Source of the DNA: a virus
IMG/VR virus record: IMGVR_UViG_3300022214_000016
Span: 1-25,894 of that record
DNA: 25,894 bases
Strand: one strand, 5' to 3'
Shown: positions 3,734 to 21,552 of the stretch, in pieces
Layout of the letters: every line of letters starts with the position of its first letter
How positions within the stretch are numbered: position 1 is the first letter of the stretch
Position numbers and translations under genes: made by a program
The notes under the pieces: generated by a model
Databases searched by the model: none
Seen by the model: the letters and a program-made list of their open reading frames with translations, nothing else
What the model was told of the DNA's origin: nothing

Positions 3734-4081
3734 CTAGCGCCCCTGTTTGAGAAGCGTGGCGAGCGGCGAGGCATCCGCTTCCACGACTGCACGAAGTTCT
3801 TGCTCGGACAGGTAGCGACCGTAGGTCGCCATCTGCTCCTGCTTGACTTTTTCAAAGAACACTTCATCCGGCATCAGCATCAGGCCGGCAATCGCACCAT
3901 GGGTCTCAGCGCACTTGTTGCAGAGGTAGAACAGGAAGTTCATGTTCTCCTCGGGGCAGTGGCCGCCCTGCGCACCGCAGTTCGCGCAGAAAATCGGGAT
4001 CCACGTACCGCCGGGCCCGTGAATCATGCCCTTCGGGGTGTGCGGGGTCTTGAGCCTGCTATCGGGCAGGATGTTGTTCAT
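3734..4081 (-). CDS. Small zinc-knuckle phage protein downstream of portal
   Basis: 115 residues. The ATG overlaps the portal stop as ATGA and has GAGGG about eight bases upstream. Cysteines C32-x2-C35 and C54-x2-C57, with His41 and Cys42 between them, look like a zinc ribbon. The C-terminal half is predicted helical (MPDEVFFEKVKQEQMATYG...SEQELRAVVEADASPLATLL). The family was not recognised beyond this. Translational coupling to the portal suggests a role in head assembly or as a portal-associated accessory factor, but this rests on position only. Confidence 0.75.
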   Translation of the reverse strand: MNNILPDSRLKTPHTPKGMIHGPGGTWIPIFCANCGAQGGHCPEENMNFLFYLCNKCAETHGAIAGLMLMPDEVFFEKVKQEQMATYGRYLSEQELRAVVEADASPLATLLKQGR

Positions 4082-6543
4082 TGCAAGACCCTCGAGGTTC
4101 CGCCGATCGGCAAGCCGTCCTTGTCGAGTTCCACTTCGATGCGACGCGGGGCCGCGTTGCTCTGGGCCATGCGCTCCATGGATTCTCCGAGCTTCTCGAG
4201 CACCGCACCAAGCTGGGCAAGCACGTTCTGCTGCTGCTCGGTGAGCGCGCGCTGCAGGTCACGAAGCTCGCGAGAGGCGGACTTGTCGGACTCGCGCTCG
4301 GCAGTCTCGCGCTCCTTCTCGAGCTGCTGCTCCTCGGTGGCCTTGGCATTGATCTGGGCGAGCTGGATCTTGGTCTCGGCCTCTCGGTCGATCTTGTATC
4401 GCGCGAGCTCATCGGCCCTTCTGGCGGCATCGGCATCCGCCTGCGCCTTGGCATTGGCGGCAGCTTCGTCGCGCGCCATCTGCTCGGTTGCCATCTGGTC
4501 CGCGCGCGCCTTTTCCTCGAGCGCGCCCTGCGCCTTGACCGCACGCTCCTGATCCCCAGACACAGCCTTGTCACGTTCGGCGGTCAGCGCCTGCATCTGC
4601 TCGGCACCCTGCTGCAACTGCGCCTGCAGCTGCTGGATCTGCTGCATGGCCGCCTGCATCTGCTGCCCCGGCGAGTCCTCGTCGACCGGCGGGATCAGCA
4701 TGTCCACGTCGATCCTCTCCTCGAATCGGCGCACGGTCTCCCTGAGCAGCTCGATCGCTGTGTTGGCCATGTCGATGTTGCCTGTCGCGCGCGCCTCGGT
4801 GACGCCCTCGATCGTCTCCTTGATGATCGGCAGGAGCTGCAGCCACTGCTCCTTGTCCTTCAGGCTGTTCGGCTTGCCAGAGGAGCCGGCGCGGATCTTC
4901 ACGTCCACCATCGAGAAGATCTCCTCGACGGACTCCTCGCCATCTGGCCAGATGGCATTCTGGCCGCACATCTGCTTCACCTCTTCCAGCGTGAAGCAGC
5001 GCAGGCCCGTCTCGAGCGCTGAGGTGAACATGTCGCTCATCAGGTCCTCGTTCACGTCCCGGCGTTCCTCGGACCTCGAGCCCATCGACTGCGCCATCAG
5101 CTCCGCCTCGGTCGCGGTCTTGGGCTTGATCAGGTTCGCCCGGCTCGCATCCGAGATGCCGGCCATCATGTCGATGTCGTTCCTGATGAGCGTCACGTCA
5201 TAGGCATTCGGGTCGATCTTGGGCGCATCGAGCTGCATCACGTCCTGATTGATCGGGACGGCCGGATTTCCCTCGACGCCGATCCAGTCCCGGTTCATGG
5301 AGTTGACCAGAGCATCGATGTCGTTGTCGCTGAGGTTCCCGCCCTTCCTGAACACGCGCCGCGGGACCGCATCCTTCCTTGCGTCTGCGAAGTTGTCGCG
5401 CGTCTTGGTGTACTCGTCCTGCAGCCCCATGAGCAGCTCGGGCTCGGAGATGGGACGCCAGCGCCCCTCGAGCAGGTTGAAGCCGAGCACGAAGTACGGG
5501 TACCAGCGCTCGGACGCGTACTTGGGCGTCATAGCATCCCGCGTCCAGCGCTCCATGCCCTTCGCCACCGTCCTGATCGTGCCGGACTCGCGATCCCAGA
5601 TCTCGATCACGCAGACGTACTGGTCGTCCGACGACATGTTCTCCAGAGGCTGGGCCGCCGGCTGCGGCGCTCCCTCCTTGGTCTTCTCGTCGGACCATGG
5701 CGTGTTGTACTTGGTCGCCTTCTCCGGGTAGTGGCCGAAGCGCGCGCTGTACTCGCGCACCGTCATGAAGATCTTGTCACCCAGCGCCTTCGATTCCTCG
5801 TACTCGTCGAACTCGTTGACCGACGGGTCGAGGATGAGGAAGTTCTCGGACTTCACCCGGTCCAAGGCGAAGCCCTTGTACATCTTGATCTCATTGGAGG
5901 ACATCAGGCCCTTCAGCTGGGCCCGAAGCTCGTCACGCTTGACGGCCAGCTGCTGCGGGTCGTACTCGCTCTTCAGGTCCTTGGCGAGCGCCTCGATCTG
6001 CGCGATGTTGTCCTGCGCGTCCTGAATGCGACGCACTTGGATCGGGTCGCCATTCAACGACTCCTGCAGCGTCATCTTGAGCACGCCGAAGGAGGTGATC
6101 AGCGTGGAGCGCACGTTCGCCTTGGCCCGCTTCTTCAGCTTGGCCTCGTCGATCACCACCTCGTTCAGGAATTGTTCCGCCGTCTGGCAGAAGCCCTTCA
6201 CCATCTTCAGCCGGTCTGGCGGGCAGCCCTTGGACGGCGAGACAGAGACCTCTGGGTTCTTGGCGTAGATCTGTGGAACGATCGTCGCTATCGTGGCGAA
6301 CACGAGGTTCGTGCGCTCGTACTTTGCGCCGGCCTCCGTGACCCTCACGCCAGCCGCGTACTGGCGCATGGTCTGCAGCTCACGGAAGAAGGCTTCGTTG
6401 TCGCGCTCGGCGCGCGCGACCCGGGCGAGCCAGTGCTTTACAGCTGAGCGCTCGTCCTCGCTCGGCTCGTAATCGTCGCGCCTCGGGTCAGTGGAGGCCG
6501 ACCCGGGTCGGGCTTTCGTCTTTGACGATTCTTGCCTTGCCAC
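4078..6543 (-). CDS. Portal protein with long C-terminal coiled coil
   Basis: 821 residues starting at GTG 6543, chosen because GAGGTGA lies six bases upstream; this start lies 56 bases inside the upstream gene. Portal proteins form the ring at the head vertex through which terminase pumps DNA. The core (residues about 30-620) carries features of long phage portals: an aromatic and charged N-terminal helical region (FFRELQTMRQYAAGVRV), FLILDPSVNEFDE, a RWYPYFVLGFNLLEGRWRP segment and PISEPELLMGLQDEYTKTRDN, followed by KTATEAELMAQSMGSRSEERR. Residues about 627-793 are almost entirely Gln/Glu/Ala/Lys/Arg with heptad character, a very long coiled coil, ending in a short RRIEVELDKDGLPIGG strand pair. 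Size and position next to terminase support the call. No frameshift was seen. Confidence 0.88.
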   Translation of the reverse strand: MARQESSKTKARPGSASTDPRRDDYEPSEDERSAVKHWLARVARAERDNEAFFRELQTMRQYAAGVRVTEAGAKYERTNLVFATIATIVPQIYAKNPEVSVSPSKGCPPDRLKMVKGFCQTAEQFLNEVVIDEAKLKKRAKANVRSTLITSFGVLKMTLQESLNGDPIQVRRIQDAQDNIAQIEALAKDLKSEYDPQQLAVKRDELRAQLKGLMSSNEIKMYKGFALDRVKSENFLILDPSVNEFDEYEESKALGDKIFMTVREYSARFGHYPEKATKYNTPWSDEKTKEGAPQPAAQPLENMSSDDQYVCVIEIWDRESGTIRTVAKGMERWTRDAMTPKYASERWYPYFVLGFNLLEGRWRPISEPELLMGLQDEYTKTRDNFADARKDAVPRRVFRKGGNLSDNDIDALVNSMNRDWIGVEGNPAVPINQDVMQLDAPKIDPNAYDVTLIRNDIDMMAGISDASRANLIKPKTATEAELMAQSMGSRSEERRDVNEDLMSDMFTSALETGLRCFTLEEVKQMCGQNAIWPDGEESVEEIFSMVDVKIRAGSSGKPNSLKDKEQWLQLLPIIKETIEGVTEARATGNIDMANTAIELLRETVRRFEERIDVDMLIPPVDEDSPGQQMQAAMQQIQQLQAQLQQGAEQMQALTAERDKAVSGDQERAVKAQGALEEKARADQMATEQMARDEAAANAKAQADADAARRADELARYKIDREAETKIQLAQINAKATEEQQLEKERETAERESDKSASRELRDLQRALTEQQQNVLAQLGAVLEKLGESMERMAQSNAAPRRIEVELDKDGLPIGGTSRVLQ

Positions 6544-6787: not shown

Positions 6788-7324
6788 TCAGGCGACGAGC
6801 ACGCAGTTCGCGCCGCCCGAGGTGTAGGCCGAGCAGCGGAAGCGCATGTAGGCCGCGAGCTCCACCTCGACACAGATGCCGATGCCCGCGCTGGCCGCCG
6901 GGATCGCCACAGCACCGGAGGGAAGTGCGGTCGCGTAGGTGACGTGGTCCGGCGAGCCCTCCACCAGCACCGTGCCGACCAGCACCGCAGCGCCGGGCGT
7001 GTTGCCGATGTGCGCGGACGCACGGTGGCGCTGCAGGAAGGGCGTGGTGTCCATCACTGAGGCCACGGACGCGGTGCCGCCGAAGGTGCCGTTGCCCACC
7101 GAGCCTAGCAGCTGGTAGGTCGTGTCGGTCACGCGCTTCACGCTCCACGTGCCGTTCATGGCGGTCAGGCCGGTCACGCCGGAGATGATGATGCGGTCGT
7201 CGTCCTTCAGCCGGTGACCGGCGGTGACGGTGGCGACGATGGGGGTGGCGTTGGTACCGCCGGTGATCAGGATGCCGGCCGCCGCGGAGGCGACCGAACC
7301 GAGGGACAGCACCTTGTTGCTCAT
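6788..7324 (-). CDS. Phage structural protein with FCCH-like domain
   Basis: 178 residues; ATG at 7324 with AGGAGA about eight bases upstream. Residues about 30-86 (AGHRLKDDDRIIISGVTG, then MNGTWSV and DTTYQL with GxGxF) match the pattern of the small beta-barrel called the ubiquitin-activating E1 FCCH domain, which is common in phage virion proteins and is not evidence for ubiquitin chemistry. The rest is Ala/Gly/Thr-rich with a hydrophobic beta-rich end (VEVELAAYMRFRCSAYTSGG). It is the first gene after the promoter candidate at 7407-7434, which fits high expression of a head or tail component. Its exact role is unknown. Confidence 0.78.
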   Translation of the reverse strand: MSNKVLSLGSVASAAAGILITGGTNATPIVATVTAGHRLKDDDRIIISGVTGLTAMNGTWSVKRVTDTTYQLLGSVGNGTFGGTASVASVMDTTPFLQRHRASAHIGNTPGAAVLVGTVLVEGSPDHVTYATALPSGAVAIPAASAGIGICVEVELAAYMRFRCSAYTSGGANCVLVA

Positions 7325-7439: not shown

Positions 7440-7979
7440 TCACCACTTCCACGGCAGGCCGCCGATCACGTGGGCGAGCATGGAGCGCATCTTCGGGTCC
7501 GTCTTGAGGGTGCCGTCGCCGCGCGCTCTCGAGCCGCCAGCGTCATGCTCGAGGCCTGCATTCACCGGCCCCTGATCCACAGCGTGCTGCAGCCTGAACT
7601 CCTCCTCCAAGAGCTCGATCGTGGAGGCGACACCGTCCTTGGCGAGCCTGAAGGCCTGCTCGAAGTTGCGGCCCTGAACGAGGATGCACTCGCCGGCAAA
7701 GAGCGCGCCCTTCACCGCGTTCCCGTCGAGCACACCATCCAGCGAGAAGAGCCAGACCTTGTTGCGCGCTCTCGAGTCACCCGGCAGGCGAAGCTCCTTC
7801 TCGAGCCGGGGCTTCACGTCCTTCATGCGGTAGAGCTCGTCGGCGCTGAGGATGCGCCTGACTGCGGCAAGGTCAGTGCGCGCGCTAGCGATCGCAAGCT
7901 CCGCAGCGCCCGCCTGCTGGTCCTCCTGCCCCGGGACGATGATCATCCCCGGTCGATGTTGTAGCTCGGCCTCTTCCAT
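7440..7979 (-). CDS. Hypothetical phage head-module protein, coiled-coil N-terminus
   Basis: 179 residues. The ATG at 7979 is preferred because AAAGGA precedes it by about five bases; a longer reading to 8012 lacks this. It overlaps the end of the large terminase by 37 bases. Residues 1-60 are charged and helical (ILSADELYRMKDVKPRLEKELRL). Then comes a compact segment with VWLFSLDGVLDGNAVKGALF and ECILVQGRNFEQAF, and a helical end followed by a Gly/Arg-rich tail. No known family was recognised. It is not an obvious scaffold or protease, since no Ser-His pair could be assigned. Location between terminase and portal suggests head assembly. Confidence 0.7.
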   Translation of the reverse strand: MEEAELQHRPGMIIVPGQEDQQAGAAELAIASARTDLAAVRRILSADELYRMKDVKPRLEKELRLPGDSRARNKVWLFSLDGVLDGNAVKGALFAGECILVQGRNFEQAFRLAKDGVASTIELLEEEFRLQHAVDQGPVNAGLEHDAGGSRARGDGTLKTDPKMRSMLAHVIGGLPWKW

Positions 7980-9526
7980 GGCTTTCCTTTCCAGCCCTGC
8001 TGCTCCAGCCACGGGATCGTACCCGGTTTCGGGCCCGTCTCCTCCGGCCTTGGCTCGAGCTTCCTCCTCGGCCTGCTCATGCAGCCGTAGCGCAAGCCGT
8101 CAGGAGGATGGTCCTCGCCGTCGGTGTCCGCGTCCTCCGGCTTCAATTCATCGTGCTGCAGCGACTCGAGCGTGGTGATCAGCTCCGGGCAGGTCTCGAA
8201 GATGTAGATGAGCGGCCGGTCGTCACCCTCGTCTCCGTGCAGCCTCATCCTGATCTGGTCCCAGCCGGGGAGCCTTCGCTTGTCCGCCGGCCTCAGGTTC
8301 AGCTTCCTCGGGCCGTGCCTCACCTTGCTCGCTGCTTCCGCAAGGCTCGGGCCTCCGTCCTCGTCGAACATGGAGGCGTCGACCACGTCGTAGTCGATCG
8401 TCTCCTTGGACGATCTTATGATCACCCCGCGCGCCCACTTCGTGGCAGGGATCTTGACGCCCACGTTCCTCTGCTTTCCGTCCCAGCCGTACCACTCGCG
8501 GTACACGATGATCGAGCCACGCGGGATGGTGATCGGACTTCCCACCGACGTCGTCGACCTCATGTCGTCCTGAGCGACCGCTCCCCAGCCGGTCCAGAAG
8601 GGCTTTGCCGAGCCCCAGTCGGACATGGTGAAGCGTGACCATTCGGCCGGCAGCTCGAGAGGCTTGATGACGTGCCTTCCCCTCGAGAACTCCGGGAAGA
8701 AGCCACCAGCGAGCACGTTCCAGTCGCCCGCCTCCATCGCCTTCACGAGGTTCGGGTCGAGCAGGCCTCGAGTCCTCGTCACGTATTCAGGGTCCTCTGC
8801 CATCCCGATCGGGTTGTCCTGCATGAGCGCCGGGATGAACTGCCTCTGCATCGCGCCCTCGGTGTCGGGCGTCTTCCAGATCTGGAAGGAGCGCATTGCG
8901 TCCACGAACGAGCGCTTGACCCACGCGTGCCCGATGTTGCCCGGGTTGGATCCGCACAGCACACGAGGGAACCAGTCCCACTCGTTCACCTTCCCGTGCG
9001 GCCCGATCTCACCCTTGCGGTACTTGACCGGGTAGGAGTCGAGATACTTGCCCGTCCCCGGGTCTCGCTTGATGCCCACCATGCGCGTGCGGAACCTGAG
9101 GTAGCGGTAGATCACCTCGGTGAAGGTGGTGAGCTCGTCCACGATGAGAACGTGGATCTCCGCCCCGTGGTACTTGAAGCGATGCGCCTCGTCCTTGCAG
9201 TGGCACAGGAAGATCTTCGAGCCGTTCCAGAAGCGGATCTCGGTCTCGACGATGCGCGCGAGCCCTGCGTTCACCCACGGCGCGAGCATGTTGCGAAAGC
9301 CGTGAGGACCTTCCATGTGGTTCTTGATCAGGTCATCTTCCACCCGGCGGAAGATGTAGACGTTCAGCCCCGGGATCTCGTAGCACCAGCTGATGGCGGC
9401 CACGCGCTCGAGGTAGCTCTTGCCACCGAACGCTGCGCCCCCGTACAGGATCTCCGTGGCCGGCGAGAGAAAGGCCTGCAGCTGCTTGGGCTGCAGCGCC
9501 AGCCGGAGCTCTACCTGTTGCGCCAC
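7943..9526 (-). CDS. terL: Terminase large subunit (packaging ATPase and nuclease)
   Basis: 527 residues; GTG at 9526, two bases from the upstream stop. TerL drives ATP-dependent packaging of DNA into the prohead and cuts the concatemer. The ATPase half shows a Walker A variant GGAAFGGKSY (residues 29-38), a Walker B VLIVDE (126-131) and a following TT coupling motif. The C-terminal nuclease has RNase H-type acidic positions: DWG near residue 300, DASMFDEDG near 380, and an Asp in the DHPPDGLRYG segment near 476. Length is normal for the family and the reading frame is intact. It sits upstream of portal in the usual order. Confidence 0.93.
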   Translation of the reverse strand: MAQQVELRLALQPKQLQAFLSPATEILYGGAAFGGKSYLERVAAISWCYEIPGLNVYIFRRVEDDLIKNHMEGPHGFRNMLAPWVNAGLARIVETEIRFWNGSKIFLCHCKDEAHRFKYHGAEIHVLIVDELTTFTEVIYRYLRFRTRMVGIKRDPGTGKYLDSYPVKYRKGEIGPHGKVNEWDWFPRVLCGSNPGNIGHAWVKRSFVDAMRSFQIWKTPDTEGAMQRQFIPALMQDNPIGMAEDPEYVTRTRGLLDPNLVKAMEAGDWNVLAGGFFPEFSRGRHVIKPLELPAEWSRFTMSDWGSAKPFWTGWGAVAQDDMRSTTSVGSPITIPRGSIIVYREWYGWDGKQRNVGVKIPATKWARGVIIRSSKETIDYDVVDASMFDEDGGPSLAEAASKVRHGPRKLNLRPADKRRLPGWDQIRMRLHGDEGDDRPLIYIFETCPELITTLESLQHDELKPEDADTDGEDHPPDGLRYGCMSRPRRKLEPRPEETGPKPGTIPWLEQQGWKGKPWKRPSYNIDRG

Positions 9527-10573: not shown

Positions 10574-11077
10574 TCAGCTCTTCTCCTGAGGTTGTGATGC
10601 AACGATGACGAGCGCCGGCACTGCAAGCGGCGTCCCGTCTGGATTCTGGTGCGTGATCCGGTCACCGTAGAGCACGGGCAGGACCTTCGCGACGAGCCAT
10701 TTCCTCGTGTCCACGCGCAGCTTCTGCCACGCGACCGCGGCACTGTCGACTCGCACCACCTGCTTGTCGTCCGGGTCGAGAGCGCTGAACGCGACGACCG
10801 GATCATCATCCGCGAGCTGCATCAGCTCCTCGGACTTCTGCGTCGCGTAGCTCGCGCGCGCTTCCTTGTCGGCCGCCTTCAGCACCTCGCTCGCGCTGAT
10901 CGAGCGAACGCGCCGGTAGAACGTGACCCAGTCGGGCATCTTCGGGTCGGACTTCAGGATGTTCAGCAACAGCTCGCCCTGAGCGTGACGATGCAGGATC
11001 TCTAGGAAGACCTCGTCCGGGTACGCATCCGCTGGGATGCCACCTGAACCGGGCCCGCGTGTGGGTGTGTCGTCCAT
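10574..11077 (-). CDS. terS: Terminase small subunit-like protein
   Basis: 167 residues from an ATG at 11077. The only nearby Shine-Dalgarno (AGGAGG) is about 12 bases away, so the start is the least certain part; the frame is open upstream to 11329 but that stretch has no protein-like character. The helical core with YPDEVFLEILHRHAQGELLL, then SASEVLKAADKEARASYA, and the C-terminal SAAVAWQKLRVDTRKWLVAK and VLYGDRI motifs match phage small terminases, which recognise DNA and recruit the large subunit. The RVDTRKWL...YGD signature is characteristic. It is the first gene of the packaging operon. Confidence 0.82.
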   Translation of the reverse strand: MDDTPTRGPGSGGIPADAYPDEVFLEILHRHAQGELLLNILKSDPKMPDWVTFYRRVRSISASEVLKAADKEARASYATQKSEELMQLADDDPVVAFSALDPDDKQVVRVDSAAVAWQKLRVDTRKWLVAKVLPVLYGDRITHQNPDGTPLAVPALVIVASQPQEKS

Positions 11078-11123
11078 ACCGCAGTGTGCCCTCCTGCCCA
11101 GATTCCTGCAACATACTCGAGCT

Positions 11124-11284
11124 GTTGATACCCGGGGAAGGACTATAGGATGGGGGTTGTCTCGTCTGGTCTGGTATGGTGGGTTGAATGGTTTAATTTG
11201 TTGAGGACGTGGTTGAATGCTTACGGACGTCACTGGACGGTTGACATTGCACTCCTCATCTGGATGCGCTGTTGAAGTTGTTGA
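11124..11284. repeat. Iterated GTTGA motif in the divergent control region
   Basis: GTTGA occurs at 11124, 11183, 11200, 11212, 11240, 11271 and 11280 on the plus strand. Several copies extend to GGTTGAATG (twice) or TGTTGAAGT (twice). Spacings 11183-11212-11240-11271 are 29, 28 and 31 bases, close to three helical turns. This could be a regulator-binding array or replication-origin iterons. No function is shown. Confidence 0.5.
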
Positions 11285-11309
11285 AGTCAAGATGCTGTTG
11301 TGGTAGGGT
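11281..11309 (+). promoter_or_regulatory. Rightward early promoter candidate
   Basis: TTGAAG (11281-11286), a 17-base spacer and TAGGGT (11304-11309) with an upstream TGG that fits an extended -10. It would start transcription about 30 bases before the first early gene. Its -35 box lies inside the last GTTGA copy, suggesting that a repressor or activator binding the array would control it. A TTGACA at 11241-11246 is another -35 option but has no good -10 partner. Confidence 0.45.
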
Positions 11310-11345
11310 CCGCCGATCCCGCAATTCACCTCGAGGAGGGCTGTC

Positions 11346-11558
11346 GTGAAGATTTCGACTCAAGCTGTTCCGATGCCTGCGTTCAGGCCGATCAGGATCA
11401 TCATCGACATCGACGACCCGAATGAGATGGATGCGGTGGCGCGCGTGCTGATCTTCCGTATCGCAAAGCTGTCCGGCGAGCCAAAGAGGTTGACCGCTCA
11501 CGAGACCGTAGAGCTGCGCGTGTGCAGCGAGCTGAAGCCAGCATTCGAGAGGGTCTGA
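11346..11558 (+). CDS. Small phage early protein
   Basis: 70 residues; GTG start with GAGGAGGG about six bases upstream, an excellent site. The protein (MKISTQAVPMPAFRPIRIII, then DDPNEMDAVARVLIF) looks like a small alpha/beta protein: a beta hairpin, an acidic turn, then a helix. I do not recognise a named family. It is the first gene after the early promoter candidate and lies three bases before the replication-protein gene, so it is expressed first in the rightward operon. Confidence 0.75.
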   Translation: MKISTQAVPMPAFRPIRIIIDIDDPNEMDAVARVLIFRIAKLSGEPKRLTAHETVELRVCSELKPAFERV

Positions 11559-11561
11559 TCC

Positions 11562-12374
11562 GTGTACAACAAGCTGTTCGGCTCGATGTTCGACGGGTCT
11601 CTCGCCACGCGCGGGCCGTGGGAGGCTCTGGTCACGTTCACCATGATGCTCGGGCTCGCGGACAAGCATGGGCACGTGGACATCACCGCCGAGATGATTG
11701 CGAGGCGCACGCTGATCCCGCTCGACGTGATCAAGAAGGGCATCGAGGAGTTGATGAAGCCCGATCCGTACTCGAGAAACCCGGCGCACGATGGCCGCAG
11801 GATTCTTCCGCTCAGGGAGAACACGGACTGGGGCTGGCTCATCGCCAACTTCGAGGAGTACCACAAGCTGCGCACGAGCGACGAGCGCGCTGCGTACCAG
11901 AGGGGCTACTACCAGACGGTGACCAAGCCGAAGCTGGCTCAACAGTCTCAACCATCTGGGGAGGTTTCACGTGGAACACAGGCCCGTGGAACCACATTCG
12001 AGAAGCATCTCGAGCTGGCGCAGGGATCTGGTGAGGATGGGGTGGAGGCCTACGTGGCGCAGATGGCTGGATGGTGCCGGCGCGAGCGCCCGGACTTGGA
12101 TGCGGCCAAGGTCTTCCTCGCCTTCCGTGATCACTGGCGCGCGAACGCGAACCAGCGCTCGGGCAAGAAGCTCGACTGGGAAGCCGCGTGGCGCAACTGG
12201 GTCAGGAAGGAGCCGCCGCCCAAGGGCACGCTCGCCGGCCCCATGCCCAAGGCCGAGAAGCGCACCTGCGACTACTGCGGGGCCCCGAGGGTCGGGGTGA
12301 CCAACGGCATCAATCACTGCCGTGAGCACGCCAACGAGGCGATGGATGGGATCCAGCCGAGGGCAAGGGCGTGA
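11562..12374 (+). CDS. Winged-helix replication-initiation-type protein with C-terminal zinc knuckle
   Basis: 270 residues; GTG start with AGGG eight bases upstream. Residues about 1-125 (YNKLFGSMFDGSLATRGPWEAL, ADKHGHVDITAEMIARRT, LDVIKKGIEEL, then WGWLIANFEEYHKLR) match the N-terminal winged-helix module of phage replisome-organiser proteins, which bind the origin and recruit the host helicase. A Ser/Gln/Thr-rich linker follows, then a helical domain (about 150-220) with WCRRERPDLDAAKVFLAFRD and LDWEAAWRNWVRK, typical of phage replication proteins. The end carries C236-x2-C239 and HC at 252-253 with His256, a zinc knuckle. A replication role fits its position at the head of the early operon. 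The exact family could be O-like or DnaD-like. Confidence 0.72.
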   Translation: MYNKLFGSMFDGSLATRGPWEALVTFTMMLGLADKHGHVDITAEMIARRTLIPLDVIKKGIEELMKPDPYSRNPAHDGRRILPLRENTDWGWLIANFEEYHKLRTSDERAAYQRGYYQTVTKPKLAQQSQPSGEVSRGTQARGTTFEKHLELAQGSGEDGVEAYVAQMAGWCRRERPDLDAAKVFLAFRDHWRANANQRSGKKLDWEAAWRNWVRKEPPPKGTLAGPMPKAEKRTCDYCGAPRVGVTNGINHCREHANEAMDGIQPRARA

Positions 12375-12637
12375 ACAGGCCACCCTACCGTCAGGCGAGA
12401 GTGCTCGCCACCCACGTCCTCGTGAACGACGATGGGAAGGTGGTGATGTTCCGCTACTGGGGATCACCGTGGCTGAGGAGCAGGCTCAGGCAGGACGTGC
12501 CCTGCTCCTCGTGCTCAAGCCCGCTCGAGAAGGGGCAGTACGCGCACAGGCCGATCGACAACAGCCTCTTCCGTGCTGACCGCCTGTGCATCGAGTGCGT
12601 TCAGAAGCTGTGCCAGCTTGAAGGAATCTCCCCATGA
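12371..12637 (+). CDS. Zinc-ribbon small protein
   Basis: 88 residues; GTG overlaps the preceding stop as GTGA. Cysteines C45-x2-C48 and C73-x2-C76 frame a loop with EKGQYAHRPIDNSLFRADRL, a classical four-cysteine zinc ribbon. The N-terminal half is a basic beta-rich segment with HVLVNDDGKVVMFRYWGSPW. Coupled to the replication protein, it may assist DNA or protein binding, but no known family was recognised. Confidence 0.7.
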   Translation: MNRPPYRQARVLATHVLVNDDGKVVMFRYWGSPWLRSRLRQDVPCSSCSSPLEKGQYAHRPIDNSLFRADRLCIECVQKLCQLEGISP

Positions 12638-12912
12638 AAGAAATCATCGTGCTCTGCAATGTGCCACATAACATCACAGAGGGCAGTTGTGCCTTATGTG
12701 AACGCGACCGCGCGCTTGAAGATGCGCGCCGATACAGAACACTGCGGGCTATGGTGGGGGTTCTTAACGTCGAGATAGGGCGCATCACCGGCATTCCAGA
12801 ACACGCTTTTACGAAAGCAACGCCAGAAGATATTCGCATTTTGTTAGATACGGAACTTGATCGGAAGTTTTATACCGAGAATAAGCCACGCGAACTAGGG
12901 GAGGACGAATGA
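12634..12912 (+). CDS. Hypothetical small protein, AT-richer gene
   Basis: 92 residues; ATG overlaps the preceding stop as ATGA with AAGGA about eight bases upstream. It contains a CALC motif (residues 19-22), an Arg/Glu-rich helix (RDRALEDARRYRTLRAMVGV) and a long acidic helix. Codon use (AAA, GAA, CAT, TTA, TTT) is visibly more AT-rich than in its neighbours, suggesting recent acquisition. No family was recognised. Confidence 0.65.
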   Translation: MKEIIVLCNVPHNITEGSCALCERDRALEDARRYRTLRAMVGVLNVEIGRITGIPEHAFTKATPEDIRILLDTELDRKFYTENKPRELGEDE

Positions 12913-13151
12913 CCAAGCAATCAGATACGCCGCTGACGGATGCTGTGCGCCTGTCCTGTCAGTCTCTTGGCGGTCAGTACCTGTCCAGTTCGTGCCACAT
13001 GGCGCTGAATCACGCAGAACGTCTTGAACGCGAACGCGCCAAGCTCGTGGAGGCGCTGCGTAGCCTAGTCCACGCAAGGCGGGATGGGCACTACCACGGA
13101 GAATGGGACAACGCCAATGAATTGCTACAAGAACTCGGGGAGAACGCATGA
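12909..13151 (+). CDS. Hypothetical small protein
   Basis: 80 residues; ATG overlaps the preceding stop as ATGA, with GGGGAGG upstream. The sequence MTKQSDTPLTDAVRLSCQSL, then a charged helix (HAERLERERAKLVEALRSLV), and an ending NANELLQELGENA, is helical and polar. Many phage early regions carry such TPLTDA-type helical proteins, but I cannot name a function. Its composition is intermediate between the AT-richer neighbour and the GC-rich backbone. Confidence 0.65.
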   Translation: MTKQSDTPLTDAVRLSCQSLGGQYLSSSCHMALNHAERLERERAKLVEALRSLVHARRDGHYHGEWDNANELLQELGENA

Positions 13152-13223
13152 CCAAGCGCACCGCTCGCTAAGGAGCTGGCGCAGATCGAGCAGTCCCGAA
13201 GTTCAACCTGAAAGGAGAGAAGC

Positions 13224-13619
13224 ATGGACGAGAAACAGGCAGCCCAGACTGTGGGCGAGATGAGGGAGCAGCGCGCGCGGGATATGTCGGTGCCCGTGAT
13301 GACCATCAGGGAGGCTGTGGAGCTGGCCCAGTGGCTTCGCAGGACCCCCGACGGGATCATCCCCCAGCACAAGGTCGAGCAGGCTATGGCGGCCCTTCTG
13401 GCCGCGCTGGAGGCGAGCCAGTGCTACCTGAAGGCCACCCTCGCCGGTGAGCAGACCTTCGTGCTCAGGCAGCGCGATCGTGCCGCTCCCGCGGCGATCT
13501 CGGTCTGGGCGATGGAGGCCCAGAAGCACGGCTGCAGCGACGACAAGACCGCGGAGGCGCACCGCATGGCCGCCAGCTGGGCCATGCAGCCCGACAGCGC
13601 CACCAAGTGGCCAGACTGA
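13224..13619 (+). CDS. Hypothetical helical early protein
   Basis: 131 residues; ATG with AAAGGAGAG about six bases upstream. It is mostly helical (MDEKQAAQTVGEMREQRAR; VELAQWLRRTPDGIIPQHK; QAMAALLAALEASQCYLKAT), with an Ala/His-rich end (AMEAQKHGCSDDKTAEAHRM). There is no membrane helix and no motif that I can match. It overlaps the next gene by 13 bases. Restart of a strong ribosome site here follows a 70-base gap with only a 7-codon reading frame. Confidence 0.7.
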   Translation: MDEKQAAQTVGEMREQRARDMSVPVMTIREAVELAQWLRRTPDGIIPQHKVEQAMAALLAALEASQCYLKATLAGEQTFVLRQRDRAAPAAISVWAMEAQKHGCSDDKTAEAHRMAASWAMQPDSATKWPD

Positions 13620-13942
13620 TCCATGAGCGCCGCTCGCTCGAGGGGGACCTGCTCTCCTTCGAGCGGGATGGCGTGCTCTGGCGTCGTGGATCCGCACGAC
13701 GTGATCACTGGTGCTCGATGGGTCACGAGAGGATCCTCCCGGGCGAGTACCTGTACCGATCGGTGCGAGCTCTCGCCGACCGCGGCAGCAAGCACGCGAA
13801 CCTGCGCCTGTGCTGGTCCTGCGCCCAGTGGCTCACCGCCCCGGACAGCGATCTAGCCGAGTGCCCCAAGCCGGCGAGCGCGAGATGGATCAGCCCCATC
13901 TTGGACAGCGTGAGTGAAGACTCACTTACGAAATCTGCTTAA
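13607..13942 (+). CDS. Small zinc-binding protein
   Basis: 111 residues from a GTG at 13607 inside the end of the preceding gene; no strong Shine-Dalgarno is seen, so the start is uncertain. C36 with H40, and C69-x2-C72, form a plausible zinc site within WCSMGHERILPGEYLYR and LRLCWSCAQWL, a pattern of small phage zinc-finger proteins (C-x-x-G-H-x-I-x-x-G-E). The last codons overlap an operator-like inverted repeat. Function is unknown. Confidence 0.6.
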   Translation: MARLIHERRSLEGDLLSFERDGVLWRRGSARRDHWCSMGHERILPGEYLYRSVRALADRGSKHANLRLCWSCAQWLTAPDSDLAECPKPASARWISPILDSVSEDSLTKSA

Positions 13943-14001
13943 CAGTCACTTAACCTCTTTCGCGTAAGTGGTTGCTTACATTTTTCTATCCATGCTACCG
14001 T
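13923..14001 (+). promoter_or_regulatory. Promoter candidate with operator-like inverted repeats
   Basis: In an AT-richer pocket, CACTTACG (13923-13930) and CGTAAGTG (13963-13970) are perfect 8-base inverted repeats, with another CACTTA at 13947-13952 between them. Immediately downstream TTGCTT (13972-13977), an 18-base spacer and TACCGT (13996-14001) with a preceding TGC resemble an extended -10 promoter. A repressor or activator binding the repeats would sit just upstream of the -35 box. An overlapping hairpin at 13910-13925 lies in the end of the previous gene. Confidence 0.5.
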
Positions 14002-14434
14002 CGGGCCGTGGTTCGGTGGTCGAGGGCGGTGCCAGCCGCCTCGGAAAGACGGATCTGGTGGGTCGGGCCGGAGCGCTGATACTCCGGCGGTTCTGGGGAA
14101 GAGGCCGGAACCTCTCCCGGTGGCGAGGAAGCTGAGGTGGGTGGCCGGGGGTCGTAGAGGGGGTCGGCGGGTGCGTGAGCGCCCTGCAGGCTCGAGCGAG
14201 GCGGCCGAGGAAGGTCAGTGACATGTTGGGCCGACGGTGCTGCTGCTCGGAGGGCCGGACCCCCCGGGTTGTTCCCGGTGAGTGGCTTGAAGACCTGTCC
14301 CCGGGAGCTACTCGAGAGCGCGTGCTGCTGCATCAGATCGGCCTTGTGTGCCTAGCGTGGCGGCGCGCGCTGCCGAGTAGTGAAGGGTTCCGCCAGCCAC
14401 CCTCGAGAGCTGGCTCCTCAAGAAGGAGCTCCCC
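14002..14434 (+). ncRNA. Candidate structured leader or non-coding RNA (gene-free, hairpin-dense)
   Basis: About 430 bases with no convincing gene on either strand. Local hairpins seen by hand are: 14021-14029 with 14036-14043 (one bulge); 14067-14073 with 14082-14088; 14096-14104 with 14111-14118 (one bulge); 14169-14174 with 14179-14184 closed by a GUGA GNRA tetraloop; 14264-14268 with 14274-14278. A longer-range pair 14163-14168 with 14230-14235 encloses the GNRA hairpin as a multi-helix domain. It follows a promoter candidate and ends at the ribosome site of the next gene. No known RNA family was recognised and GC-rich DNA forms hairpins by chance, so this is a candidate. Confidence 0.4.
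14413..14429 (+). promoter_or_regulatory. Hairpin covering the Shine-Dalgarno of the following gene
   Basis: GCTCCT (14413-14418) pairs perfectly with AGGAGC (14424-14429) around a 5-base loop. AGGAG is the core of the ribosome site for the ATG at 14435, so the stem would sequester it and could make translation depend on upstream RNA structure or a factor. Confidence 0.5.
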
Positions 14435-14608
14435 ATGGAAGTCAAGAACCTGAGCTTGAAGGGCATCGCCTCCTACGCGATGGCCAACGGGCTGAAGTTG
14501 AAGGTGCTCAGCGTCAAGGGCAAGCTGGTCAGGCTCGCCGCGGTCAACGCGATGGGCGAGAAGCTCGCATACGCGAGCGGCTACAGGCTGGAAGGGGGTG
14601 CTGCATGA
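14435..14608 (+). CDS. Small basic beta-rich peptide
   Basis: 57 residues; ATG with AAGGAG six bases upstream. Sequence MEVKNLSLKGIASYAMANGL followed by KLKVLSVKGKLVRLA is rich in Lys, Leu, Val and Ala, with alternating charged and hydrophobic positions, suggesting a small beta-rich fold. No cysteine and no membrane segment is present. It is the first gene after the 490-base gene-free stretch, and its stop overlaps the next start as ATGA. No family was recognised. Confidence 0.7.
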   Translation: MEVKNLSLKGIASYAMANGLKLKVLSVKGKLVRLAAVNAMGEKLAYASGYRLEGGAA

Positions 14609-14844
14609 TCGCGCGCGACTGGTGGAACCTGATCCTGATCCTGATCGCAGCGCTGATCGCGCAAGGCTCCTCGCTGATTCCCGCCGAGGCAGCCTGCTCC
14701 ACGGACAGCGAGTGCGTGATGCTCTGCCCGGTCGACGAGATCGACTGCGACGGCGGCCCCGCGCCGGCACTGCTCGAGCTGGGCGGCGGCAAGGTGATGG
14801 ACAAGAGCGGCACGGTGCGCAGCCCGCACCGGATCTGGATCTGA
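14605..14844 (+). CDS. Small exported cysteine-rich protein
   Basis: 79 residues; ATG overlaps the preceding stop as ATGA, with GGAAGGGGG upstream. A hydrophobic segment (residues 8-19, NLILILIAALIA) after RDWW and the following IPAEA-A make a likely Sec signal peptide cut near residue 29 or 30. The mature part has four cysteines (C31, C37, C41, C48) in an acidic ACSTDSECVMLCP...DCDGGP stretch and a polar tail. It could be disulfide-bonded in the periplasm. A single-pass membrane anchor is an alternative. Such peptides occur in phages, but the function is unknown; superinfection or envelope-related roles are speculative. Confidence 0.72.
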   Translation: MIARDWWNLILILIAALIAQGSSLIPAEAACSTDSECVMLCPVDEIDCDGGPAPALLELGGGKVMDKSGTVRSPHRIWI

Positions 14845-14879
14845 ACCTCAACCTGAAGGAGAAGACGATGGCCAAGAAC
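14838..14879 (+). repeat. 42-base direct repeat, copy 1 (translation start module)
   Basis: Exact copy of 15184-15225, spanning the end of the previous gene, the AAGGAG ribosome site, the ATG and the first codons (Met-Ala-Lys-Asn) of the 105-residue gene. The two copies are 346 bases apart. Confidence 0.95.
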
Positions 14880-15185
14880 CTGTTGAAGTCCAAGTACTGG
14901 CGCTTCAGCTATGAGGAGAAGCCCAACCTCGGGCTGTGTGCCTACGGCTGGGGCGAGTACCCGCGCGGCTCGGTGCTGGCGGGGCAGCCCATGAAGGTGT
15001 TCCTCGAGAGCTTCGAGAGTCTCGAGGCGCTGCTCGCGAAGTACCCCTCGGCCAATGGTGGCGGCCGCTGGGTGGACCCGCAAGTCAACCTGAACCACCT
15101 CCCGGGCGAGGATGACCCGGCGGTGGGCGGCATGTGGCCCGACGACCTCGATCTCAAGGCGGCGGACGCGCGCCGGCTGTACTGA
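14868..15185 (+). CDS. Hypothetical small protein with duplicated initiation module
   Basis: 105 residues; ATG with AAGGAGAAG upstream. The protein (MAKNLLKSKYWRFSYEEKPN, then GLCAYGWGEYPRGSVL) is aromatic-rich with a YGWGEYP patch, a helical middle (VFLESFESLEALLAKYPS) and a C-terminal WPDDLDLKAADARRLY. No domain was recognised. It shares its first four residues and an identical 42-base start region with the next gene, though the proteins differ after that, which points to duplication of the ribosome site plus start rather than of the gene. Confidence 0.72.
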   Translation: MAKNLLKSKYWRFSYEEKPNLGLCAYGWGEYPRGSVLAGQPMKVFLESFESLEALLAKYPSANGGGRWVDPQVNLNHLPGEDDPAVGGMWPDDLDLKAADARRLY

Positions 15186-15225
15186 TCTGAACCTCAACCT
15201 GAAGGAGAAGACGATGGCCAAGAAC
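15184..15225 (+). repeat. 42-base direct repeat, copy 2 (translation start module)
   Basis: Exact copy of 14838-14879, overlapping the stop of the 105-residue gene and containing the ribosome site and start of the following gene. Confidence 0.95.
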
Positions 15226-15474
15226 GCATTCGGCAAGTCCCGCAAGCCCGGCAACGCGTACGTGGTGCTCGGGGGCAACGGCTGGAAGTGGGAGATCCTC
15301 AAGCTCTACAAGAGCCCCGAGGCGAGCCTGAAGGATCCGTACGCCCGTGCCTTCTGCTACGTGCACGGCATCGAAGCCGAGTACGGCGACGTCTACCTGC
15401 GCGAGATCCCGGGCGCGATGGCGTGGCTGAACAGCATGGCGTACGCCGCCAACGCGGCGAAGGCGGCGGCATGA
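15214..15474 (+). CDS. Hypothetical small protein, paralogous start
   Basis: 86 residues; ATG at 15214 inside the second 42-base repeat. Sequence MAKNAFGKSRKPGNAYVVLG, then GWKWEILKLYKSPEA and a middle with CYVHGIEAEYGDVYLREIPG, ends in an Ala-rich helix. No domain is recognised, and beyond MAKN it is not obviously similar to its left neighbour. Its stop overlaps a 13-residue reading frame that carries the ribosome site of the next gene. Confidence 0.72.
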   Translation: MAKNAFGKSRKPGNAYVVLGGNGWKWEILKLYKSPEASLKDPYARAFCYVHGIEAEYGDVYLREIPGAMAWLNSMAYAANAAKAAA

Positions 15475-15512
15475 TCGAAGTCAGGCTGCACAGCAAGAAA
15501 GGGGGCAGCTGA
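15471..15512 (+). other. 13-codon reading frame, possible coupling peptide
   Basis: ATG overlaps the preceding stop (ATGA) and its own stop overlaps the next ATG (TGATG), encoding MIEVRLHSKKGGS. The GGGGG ribosome site for the following gene lies inside it. It may keep ribosomes moving through the junction. It may also be coincidental. Confidence 0.3.
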
Positions 15513-15673
15513 TGCCGCACTGCCCGATGTGCAACGGGCCCGGCGCGAAGCTGGGCAACCTCGGTTGGATGCACTGGTTCCGGTGCATCGACTGCGGGTG
15601 GGACTTCTCGATCCCGAGCGACGCGCTCGCCGAGGAGCTGGACGACGCAGACTACGACGTGGAGGCCGCATGA
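15512..15673 (+). CDS. 53-residue zinc-ribbon peptide
   Basis: 53 residues; ATG overlaps the preceding short frame as TGATG with GGGGG about six bases upstream. C4-x2-C7 and C25-x2-C28 with MPHCPMCNGPG and WFRCIDCGWDF form a zinc-ribbon of the kind seen in tiny phage proteins; the rest is acidic (LAEELDDADYD). The spacing between the pairs suits a zinc knuckle that could bind RNA polymerase, DNA or ribosome factors, but no target is known. The stop overlaps the next start as ATGA. Confidence 0.72.
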   Translation: MPHCPMCNGPGAKLGNLGWMHWFRCIDCGWDFSIPSDALAEELDDADYDVEAA

Positions 15674-15885
15674 AGCTGTACTACGTGACGCTGCAGGAGA
15701 AGATGAGAGAGCGCGAGCATAAGCGCTGGCAGCACAAGCTGGTCGTGATGGCCGAGAGCGATGTGGGCGCTATCGCCGCCGCGCGCGATGCGGACCCGCA
15801 CTACTTCAACAACCTGCACTGGTGTCAGGTGGAAGAGGTGGGGCGCGATGCCGTGAAGCTGAACATGGTGAAGGTGCCGGCATGA
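15670..15885 (+). CDS. Hypothetical small protein
   Basis: 71 residues; ATG overlaps the preceding stop as ATGA. The sequence MKLYYVTLQEKMREREHKRW, then QHKLVVMAESDVGAIAAARD, followed by a beta strand, fits a small alpha/beta protein (strand, helix, strand). Its layout resembles the 71-residue proteins at 22611 and 25001, each opening with a strand like MKLYYV, LFAIQAYG or IYVVEV and a following helix, so they may share a fold. That likeness is by eye and not an alignment. Function unknown. Confidence 0.7.
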   Translation: MKLYYVTLQEKMREREHKRWQHKLVVMAESDVGAIAAARDADPHYFNNLHWCQVEEVGRDAVKLNMVKVPA

Positions 15886-16175
15886 AGAACCCGACGAGAA
15901 CACCGCTGCCGTTCAAGTCTGAGTTTGGCGAAGGCCGCGCCCACATTGTTAGCGATGGGCAAGACATTGCGACCATCTGCCGGATGCACGGCGACAAGTC
16001 GGCGCAGATGGAATTTGACCTCGCCGCCTACATCGCCCACGCCTGCAACGCCTACCCGCGATTAGTGTCCGCTTTGCGTGACGCACGCATGCGCCTTTGG
16101 CAATGGGATTCGCACCCATCGTCGAGAGCCGTCCCAGAGATCGATGCCCTTCTGCGCGAACTGGGCGAGGAGTAG
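15882..16175 (+). CDS. Hypothetical small protein
   Basis: 97 residues; ATG overlaps the preceding stop as ATGA. MKNPTRTPLPFKSEFGEGRA precedes a segment IVSDGQDIATICRMHGDKSA, then helices (DLAAYIAHACNAYPRLVSALRDARMRLWQW) and an acidic end (EIDALLRELGEE). The layout of a short beta hairpin followed by a helical ACNAYPRLVSAL part looks like many small phage proteins whose role is not known. Composition is slightly AT-richer than adjacent genes. Confidence 0.7.
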   Translation: MKNPTRTPLPFKSEFGEGRAHIVSDGQDIATICRMHGDKSAQMEFDLAAYIAHACNAYPRLVSALRDARMRLWQWDSHPSSRAVPEIDALLRELGEE

Positions 16176-17703: not shown

Positions 17704-17886
17704 ATGGCACTGAAGGTAGTGTACGCCGAGGGCAAGCACCGCATCGACACGGAACGCAAGCTGATCAACCTCGTCATCCGCGCAGTGCAGTCCGGTCGTC
17801 TGTTGGACATGACGATCTACGACGACCGCGGCGGCAATGGCGGGTTCGTGGTTCGCCTGCGGTCCATCGACGGCGCGCCGCTCTGA
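17704..17886 (+). CDS. 60-residue hypothetical protein
   Basis: 60 residues; ATG at 17704 with GGAGG five bases upstream; an in-frame ATG at 17692 lies before the ribosome site and is less likely. MALKVVYAEGKHRIDTERKL, then LINLVIRAVQSGRLLDMTIY and DDRGGNGGFVVRLRS, looks like a beta hairpin, helix and strand. No domain recognised. Its stop overlaps the next ATG as TGATG. Confidence 0.65.
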   Translation: MALKVVYAEGKHRIDTERKLINLVIRAVQSGRLLDMTIYDDRGGNGGFVVRLRSIDGAPL

Positions 17887-18125
17887 TGGCGACGAAGAGC
17901 ATTCGCCCGGTGACGCGCGAGTCCAGCGCGTTCGTCCGGGAGCGAGGGTTGCGGCCGCTCATGGTCACGATCCACGACAGCCTTCTCCTGCTGCGCCCGA
18001 AAGGGCTGCGGCGCGAGGAGGTACTGGACTTGAGTGCCGCCTACAGCGTGGCGGTGAAGACGCGGGTGCAGCGCGAGCGATGGGAGCGAGCGCAGGCCCG
18101 CAAGGCAAAGCGGAAAGGAGGTTGA
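17886..18125 (+). CDS. Small basic phage protein
   Basis: 79 residues; ATG overlaps the preceding stop as TGATG. Strongly basic, with MATKSIRPVTRESSAFVRE, RGLRPLMVTIHDSLLLLRPK and LRREEVLDLSAAYSVAVKTR, then a Lys/Arg-rich tail (RKAKRKGG). The pattern (PLxVTIxxSLxxLRPKGLRREEVLDL) resembles widely distributed short phage proteins. A DNA-binding or host-interaction role is possible, neither demonstrated. It ends four bases before the winged-helix gene, whose ribosome site (AAAGGAGG) is inside its last codons. Confidence 0.68.
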   Translation: MATKSIRPVTRESSAFVRERGLRPLMVTIHDSLLLLRPKGLRREEVLDLSAAYSVAVKTRVQRERWERAQARKAKRKGG

Positions 18126-21264: not shown

Positions 21265-21494
21265 TGGCGCAGCCTGATGGACATGCCGAGGGCGTCGGCC
21301 ACCTCCAGCACCTTGGAGAACCGCGGCTCCTTGTCCTGACCGGCGGCGAATGCAACGATCCACCTGTAGGTCATCGGCGTGTTCGCGTTCAACTCGAGCA
21401 CCTTGCGCAGGACCGCAGCGTAGGCACCGTTCTGGCGCAGCTTGTTCCTCACCGTGTTGGTGATGTGCGCGACCTCCTCTGGCCGGGTTTGCAT
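21261..21494 (-). CDS. HTH transcription regulator (Cro/CI-like)
   Basis: 77 residues; ATG with ACAGGAAA about four bases upstream. The sequence VRNKLRQNGAYAAVLRKVLE, then NTPMTYRWIVAFAAGQDKEP and FSKVLEVADALGM, has the helix, turn and recognition-helix spacing of small phage HTH regulators (YxxxLxxVxxLxxxTxxxxRxxxG with LxxxADALGM). Likely a DNA-binding regulator of the divergent YqaJ gene and of its own cassette, inferred from the shared promoter region. It opens the inverted cassette. Confidence 0.72.
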   Translation of the reverse strand: MQTRPEEVAHITNTVRNKLRQNGAYAAVLRKVLELNANTPMTYRWIVAFAAGQDKEPRFSKVLEVADALGMSIRLRQ

Positions 21495-21552
21495 TTTCCT
21501 GTCCGTCTGCGATAGAATCCTAACCCTACGTCCACGGAGGAGGACCTGTCAA
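21489..21552. promoter_or_regulatory. Divergent promoter region between HTH gene and yqaJ
   Basis: Plus strand: TTGCAT (21489-21494), 18-base spacer, TAGAAT (21513-21518) toward YqaJ; the -10 is good and the -35 weak. Minus strand: TTGACA (21552-21547), 18-base spacer, TAGGGT (21528-21523) toward the HTH gene. The two overlap, so a regulator bound between them could switch between directions. The same TAGGGT -10 appears at 11304-11309. Confidence 0.5.

Follow-up and report, generated by a model that had tools for sequence, protein, structure and literature searches.

A probable structured leader RNA behind a conserved promoter in the early-type region of a tailed phage

The window, meaning the whole stretch of DNA analyzed here, is a 25,894-base virus record of a tailed phage. 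Its left part is carried on the minus strand; its right part is carried on the plus strand and also holds many small genes without assigned function. Within the plus-strand, early-type region (judged early from its gene content) lies a block of some 425 nt, 14008–14434, that is the subject of this work.

4078–6543, minus strand: portal gene
6788–7324, minus strand: tail gene
7943–9526, minus strand: large terminase gene
10574–11329, minus strand: small terminase gene
11562–12374, plus strand: replication-initiation protein gene, upstream of the block
13925–13978, no strand assigned: five CTTA motifs (three in CACTTA, one inverted), upstream of the promoter and into its −35 region
13972–14001, plus strand: promoter TTGCTT, 18 nt, TACCGT; a TG directly precedes the −10 hexamer, and the conserved RNA start follows after 6 nt
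14008–14434, plus strand: probable structured leader RNA, about 425 nt, non-coding, its start placed from the promoter, with counterparts in two related phages
14435–14608, plus strand: first downstream gene, a predicted lysine-rich protein of 57 aa
21552–22451, plus strand: RecE-like exonuclease gene

Two further promoter sequences stand out in the window. A candidate, TTGAAG-17-TAGGGT, occupies 11281–11309 in the divergent region, and a similar TTGCCT-17-TAGGGT occurs in the relative L002 at 8561 (minus strand). A second good promoter, TTGCAT-18-TAGAAT, lies at 21489–21518, directly 5′ of the RecE-like exonuclease gene.

A terminase search yielded two relatives, L002 and L004, with terminase identities of 75% and 66%; in each of them the block occupies the equivalent genomic position.

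L002, 6876–6460, minus strand: homologous element
L004, 6574–6118, minus strand: homologous element

Over 94 nt of the element, the window and L002 share 80% DNA identity, whereas the neighboring early proteins are 34–55% identical. The gene behind the RNA is the 57-aa gene in the window and in L002 (55% identity) and a different gene in L004, where no homologue of the 57-aa gene was found. The RNA is thus retained although its downstream neighbor differs, and so it belongs to the operon rather than to any one gene. In L004 and in a further phage, L109, the leader is flanked by the early genes on one side and by the divergent gene for the small terminase subunit on the other. L109 shares a downstream gene with the window (70%), and at the corresponding site (4971–5332) it has perfect sigma70 hexamers, TTGACA, 19 nt, TATAAT, followed by a gene-free leader of about 320 bases that holds a very long hairpin. 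The L109 leader has no sequence similarity to the block. This one case hints at a genomic site where different large leaders are swapped.

An earlier sequence-only reading had described the block as free of genes, and comparison with L002 agrees. The open reading frames in 14008–14434 are mechanical readings only. Substitutions between the window and L002 are spread flatly over codon positions (26/20/21), and the gap runs measure 1, 18, 5, 1, and 12 nt. By comparison, a nearby true gene at 17886–18125 has 12/6/29 substitutions and no gaps. The block shows neither a frame kept across homologues nor a preponderance of third-position changes, and we exclude coding because of its 1- and 5-nt indels and flat substitution pattern. 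The predicted 79-aa protein of the gene at 17886–18125 is 89% identical to the L002 homologue, far above other early proteins; the substitution pattern confirms that the gene is coding, and its aligned RNA also folds unusually well (z −5.55).

The promoter proposed in the same reading also proved sound, as did the inverted CACTTACG/CGTAAGTG repeats, found at 13923–13930 and 13963–13970. L002 and L004 have matching promoter layouts, TTGCAA-17-TACACT and TTGACA-17-TAGCGT, and each of the three promoters fits TTGnnn-N17/18-TAnnnT and ends 6–7 nt 5′ of the conserved RNA start, GURG. Immediately upstream, 5 of the 27 CTTA/TAAG copies in the window fall within 54 bp (13925–13978), spaced roughly one helical turn apart; none of 500 random placements reached such clustering. 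All three CACTTA copies in the window lie in this upstream region, and although a total of three is about the chance number, their clustering is not. The array, which is only loosely echoed in L002 and L004, probably holds regulator-binding sites and could be an operator for a phage regulator.

The block was also described as dense in hairpins. That much is expected, because the block is about 69% GC. Its whole folding energy is unremarkable against shuffles (z −1.13), an outcome that the sequence-only reading had named as counting against a structured RNA and that would do so if taken alone. The hairpins are nonetheless real, and the case for them rests on covariation and on a long hairpin near the 3′ end.

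14025–14040, plus strand: H1, GGCGG-UGCCAG-CCGCC, with covariation
14067–14088, plus strand: H2, GCCGGAG-CGCUGAUA-CUCCGGC, with covariation and double changes in 3 of 7 pairs; preceded by an invariant GGUGGGUCG (14057–14065)
14089–14112, plus strand: H3, GGUUCUGG-GGAAGAGG-CCGGAACC, with covariation and G-U pairs
14169–14184, plus strand: H5, GGGUGC-GUGA-GCGCCC, with 5 pairs preserved in each of the three phages, 2 of them with double changes, in a hand alignment
14192–14250, plus strand: long-range helix P6, 14192–14198 with 14244–14250, with 7 pairs kept in all three phages
14308–14380, plus strand: long 3′ hairpin whose main stem has 22 pairs, z −3.56
14412–14430, plus strand: hairpin over the ribosome-binding site AAGGAG, z −0.28

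Compensatory changes, which the earlier reading had proposed to look for in homologues, were found across three sequences (window, L002, and L004), aligned with the gaps in two loops placed by hand. All 21 pairs of H1–H3 (14025–14112, within the first 105 nt) form in each phage. Seven of these pairs are altered on both sides, and none of 5000 shuffles that kept the column conservation pattern matched this. Under a less hand-fitted alignment two hairpins remain, and 0 of 2000 shuffles reach their double-change count. A slide control, scored by pair count, found 98% of cells paired in register versus 40–67% when slid. Position 3 of P6 is G-C, C-G, and A-U in the three phages; support for this helix is moderate, because shuffled window/L002 alignments yield about two stems with one double change. 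Taken in isolation, the 5′ domain of L002 and that of L004 show no folding advantage over shuffled sequence. Column-shuffled alignment folding gave z −2.84 for window/L002, a value that we do not rely on because the coding control also scored −5.55. Since H3 and H5 use G-U pairs, they act as plus-strand RNA, and the reverse strand loses H3. Two finer details of the earlier reading fared less well: the GUGA tetraloop is present at 14175–14178 but is not conserved, and the proposed long-range pairing of 14163–14168 with 14230–14235 is complementary in the window but not in L002 or L004.

Long hairpins also occur in the 3′ halves of the other leaders (z values: L002, −6.35; L109, −4.70; L004, −4.87). 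All four z values, that of the window included, are somewhat flattered because the hairpins were chosen by eye. Closer to the downstream gene, a hairpin said to hide the next ribosome site does exist, but its energy is ordinary; an equivalent is present in L002 (CUCCUCGAGAAGGAG), weak in L004, and absent from L109. A simple scan of 11000–16000 found no intrinsic terminator on the plus strand before the gene at 14435, and the RNA is therefore most simply a 5′ leader.

In agreement with the earlier failure to recognize any known RNA, Rfam returned only chance-level matches for the window, L002, and L004, none of them near the gathering score, and covariance models placed the block in neither GOLLD, ROOL, nor any other Rfam family. 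No DNA match to the block was found in 50,697 phage records, and plasmid matches were rejected as short chance hits. DNA patterns drawn from conserved stretches recovered L002 and L004 only, plus unrelated chance hits. A covariance model, R1, found no further member in 90 loci and none in about 700 genomes, in searches run without a positive control. One locus, L035, shares a 361-aa protein and was considered as a carrier; on reading its sequence the element is absent, and the model found nothing in the other loci of the 361-aa protein search.

Taken together, these comparisons indicate that the block is very probably a new functional RNA whose shape is kept by matching mutations in two related phages. 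Compensatory change in three phages, a shared promoter position, and the exclusion of coding all support the earlier suspicion of a structured RNA behind a promoter. That reading had left the choice among RNA gene, leader, and DNA-level structure undecided; a leader fits best, given that no terminator was found, that H3 and H5 use G-U pairs, and that the reverse strand loses H3. We are highly confident that the block is the structured 5′ leader of a phage early transcript.

Three known systems offer comparisons. The put RNA of phage HK022 needs no phage protein to bring about terminator read-through, for which it uses the zinc-binding domain of the RNA polymerase β′ subunit. Its two copies per genome, putL and putR, are each about 70 nt long with two stem-loops (PMC9378689). 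Like put, the block is a structured RNA placed at the very start of an early transcript or close to it (early by gene content), directly behind the promoter and with no dedicated protein evident. It differs in its length of about 425 nt, about six times that of put, in its architecture (five or more helices spread across upwards of 240 nt, with a long hairpin toward the 3′ end), in the single copy found in the window, and in the lack of any sequence match to put sites. Given these differences in size, copy number, and sequence, we do not file it as a put RNA. The large ornate RNAs found in phages, GOLLD and ROOL among them, are like the block multi-helix RNAs of hundreds of nucleotides with no assigned function; the block has no Rfam match, is smaller, and is a leader joined to the early operon. 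The nut site of phage lambda is a short boxA/boxB element that needs the N protein. The block shares with such sites its place as a cis RNA in an early leader but is a large domain, and we identified no N-like protein.

How might such a leader act? Its tie to the operon, not to one gene, speaks for an effect on the whole transcript and hence for anti-termination or anti-pausing in cis. Transcription would start from the promoter at 13972–14001, and the leader would fold into the conserved 5′ domain (H1, H2, H3, H5, and P6) followed by the long 3′ hairpin. It may then act on its own transcribing RNA polymerase and prevent pausing or termination across about 11 kb of downstream early genes much as put does, while the CTTA array may set the timing of leader synthesis. 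Anti-termination itself is a tentative proposal by analogy, suggested by position only. The single copy and the sixfold greater length count against put-like action, the long 3′ hairpin is not obviously needed by a cis anti-terminator, and the scan of 11000–16000 identified no downstream terminators for the leader to overcome. We regard the full reading, in which an early-operon leader combines put-like cis action with CTTA control, as evenly balanced between right and wrong.

After anti-termination, two close rivals are next most likely. The leader might instead govern how the first early gene or genes are translated or how stable their message is: RNase III would cut at the long 3′ hairpin, and the hairpin that hides the ribosome site would stay closed until a ligand, a protein, or cleavage opened it. 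Long hairpins in the 3′ halves of all four leaders and the paired ribosome sites of the window and L002 suit this idea, but the ordinary energy of the ribosome-site hairpin, its absence from L109, and a first gene that varies between phages do not, and we consider it rather unlikely. Marginally less probable still is a trans-acting non-coding RNA, cut from the early transcript and abundant in infection, with targets such as host RNA polymerase, a host defence protein, or the ribosome. The large conserved 5′ domain with a promoter directly in front would fit such an RNA, and the cleavable-looking long hairpin could split it from the mRNA; against this, the RNA is followed at once by the next gene's ribosome site, no terminator was found, and no known family matched.

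A replication-priming transcript at an origin, with G-rich R-loop RNA and the CTTA array as initiator sites, would draw on a G-over-C skew that ranks near the top for the early region, on the repeat array, and on the upstream replication-initiation gene. We judge it very improbable: the skew is weak in L004 (0.075), where no homologue of that gene was detected, and it is the RNA structure itself, not clearly the array, that is conserved. Least credible is the view that these are chance hairpins in GC-rich spacer DNA. The unremarkable energies of the whole block and of the isolated 5′ domains of L002 and L004 are what it would predict, but it does not sit with the compensatory changes, the conserved promoter and position, or a DNA identity well above that of the neighboring early proteins.

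Finally, the contrast between the leader shared by the window, L002, and L004 and that of L109 raises the possibility, which we consider rather unlikely, that large phage leader RNAs form a new class whose members, unrelated in sequence, are swapped at one site among phages of this group. Such swapping would be expected of a leader that, with no protein involved, itself contacts the host transcription machinery or a host defence. To our knowledge, few large structured phage RNAs have been described and almost none has a known job, and protein-free anti-termination is known to us mainly from HK022-like phages. The block has a clear address, heading an early transcript, and it has a defined start and a conserved 105-nt 5′ domain. 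If anti-termination is indeed its role, a large, unrelated RNA acting without a protein would be a second solution besides that of the HK022-like phages.
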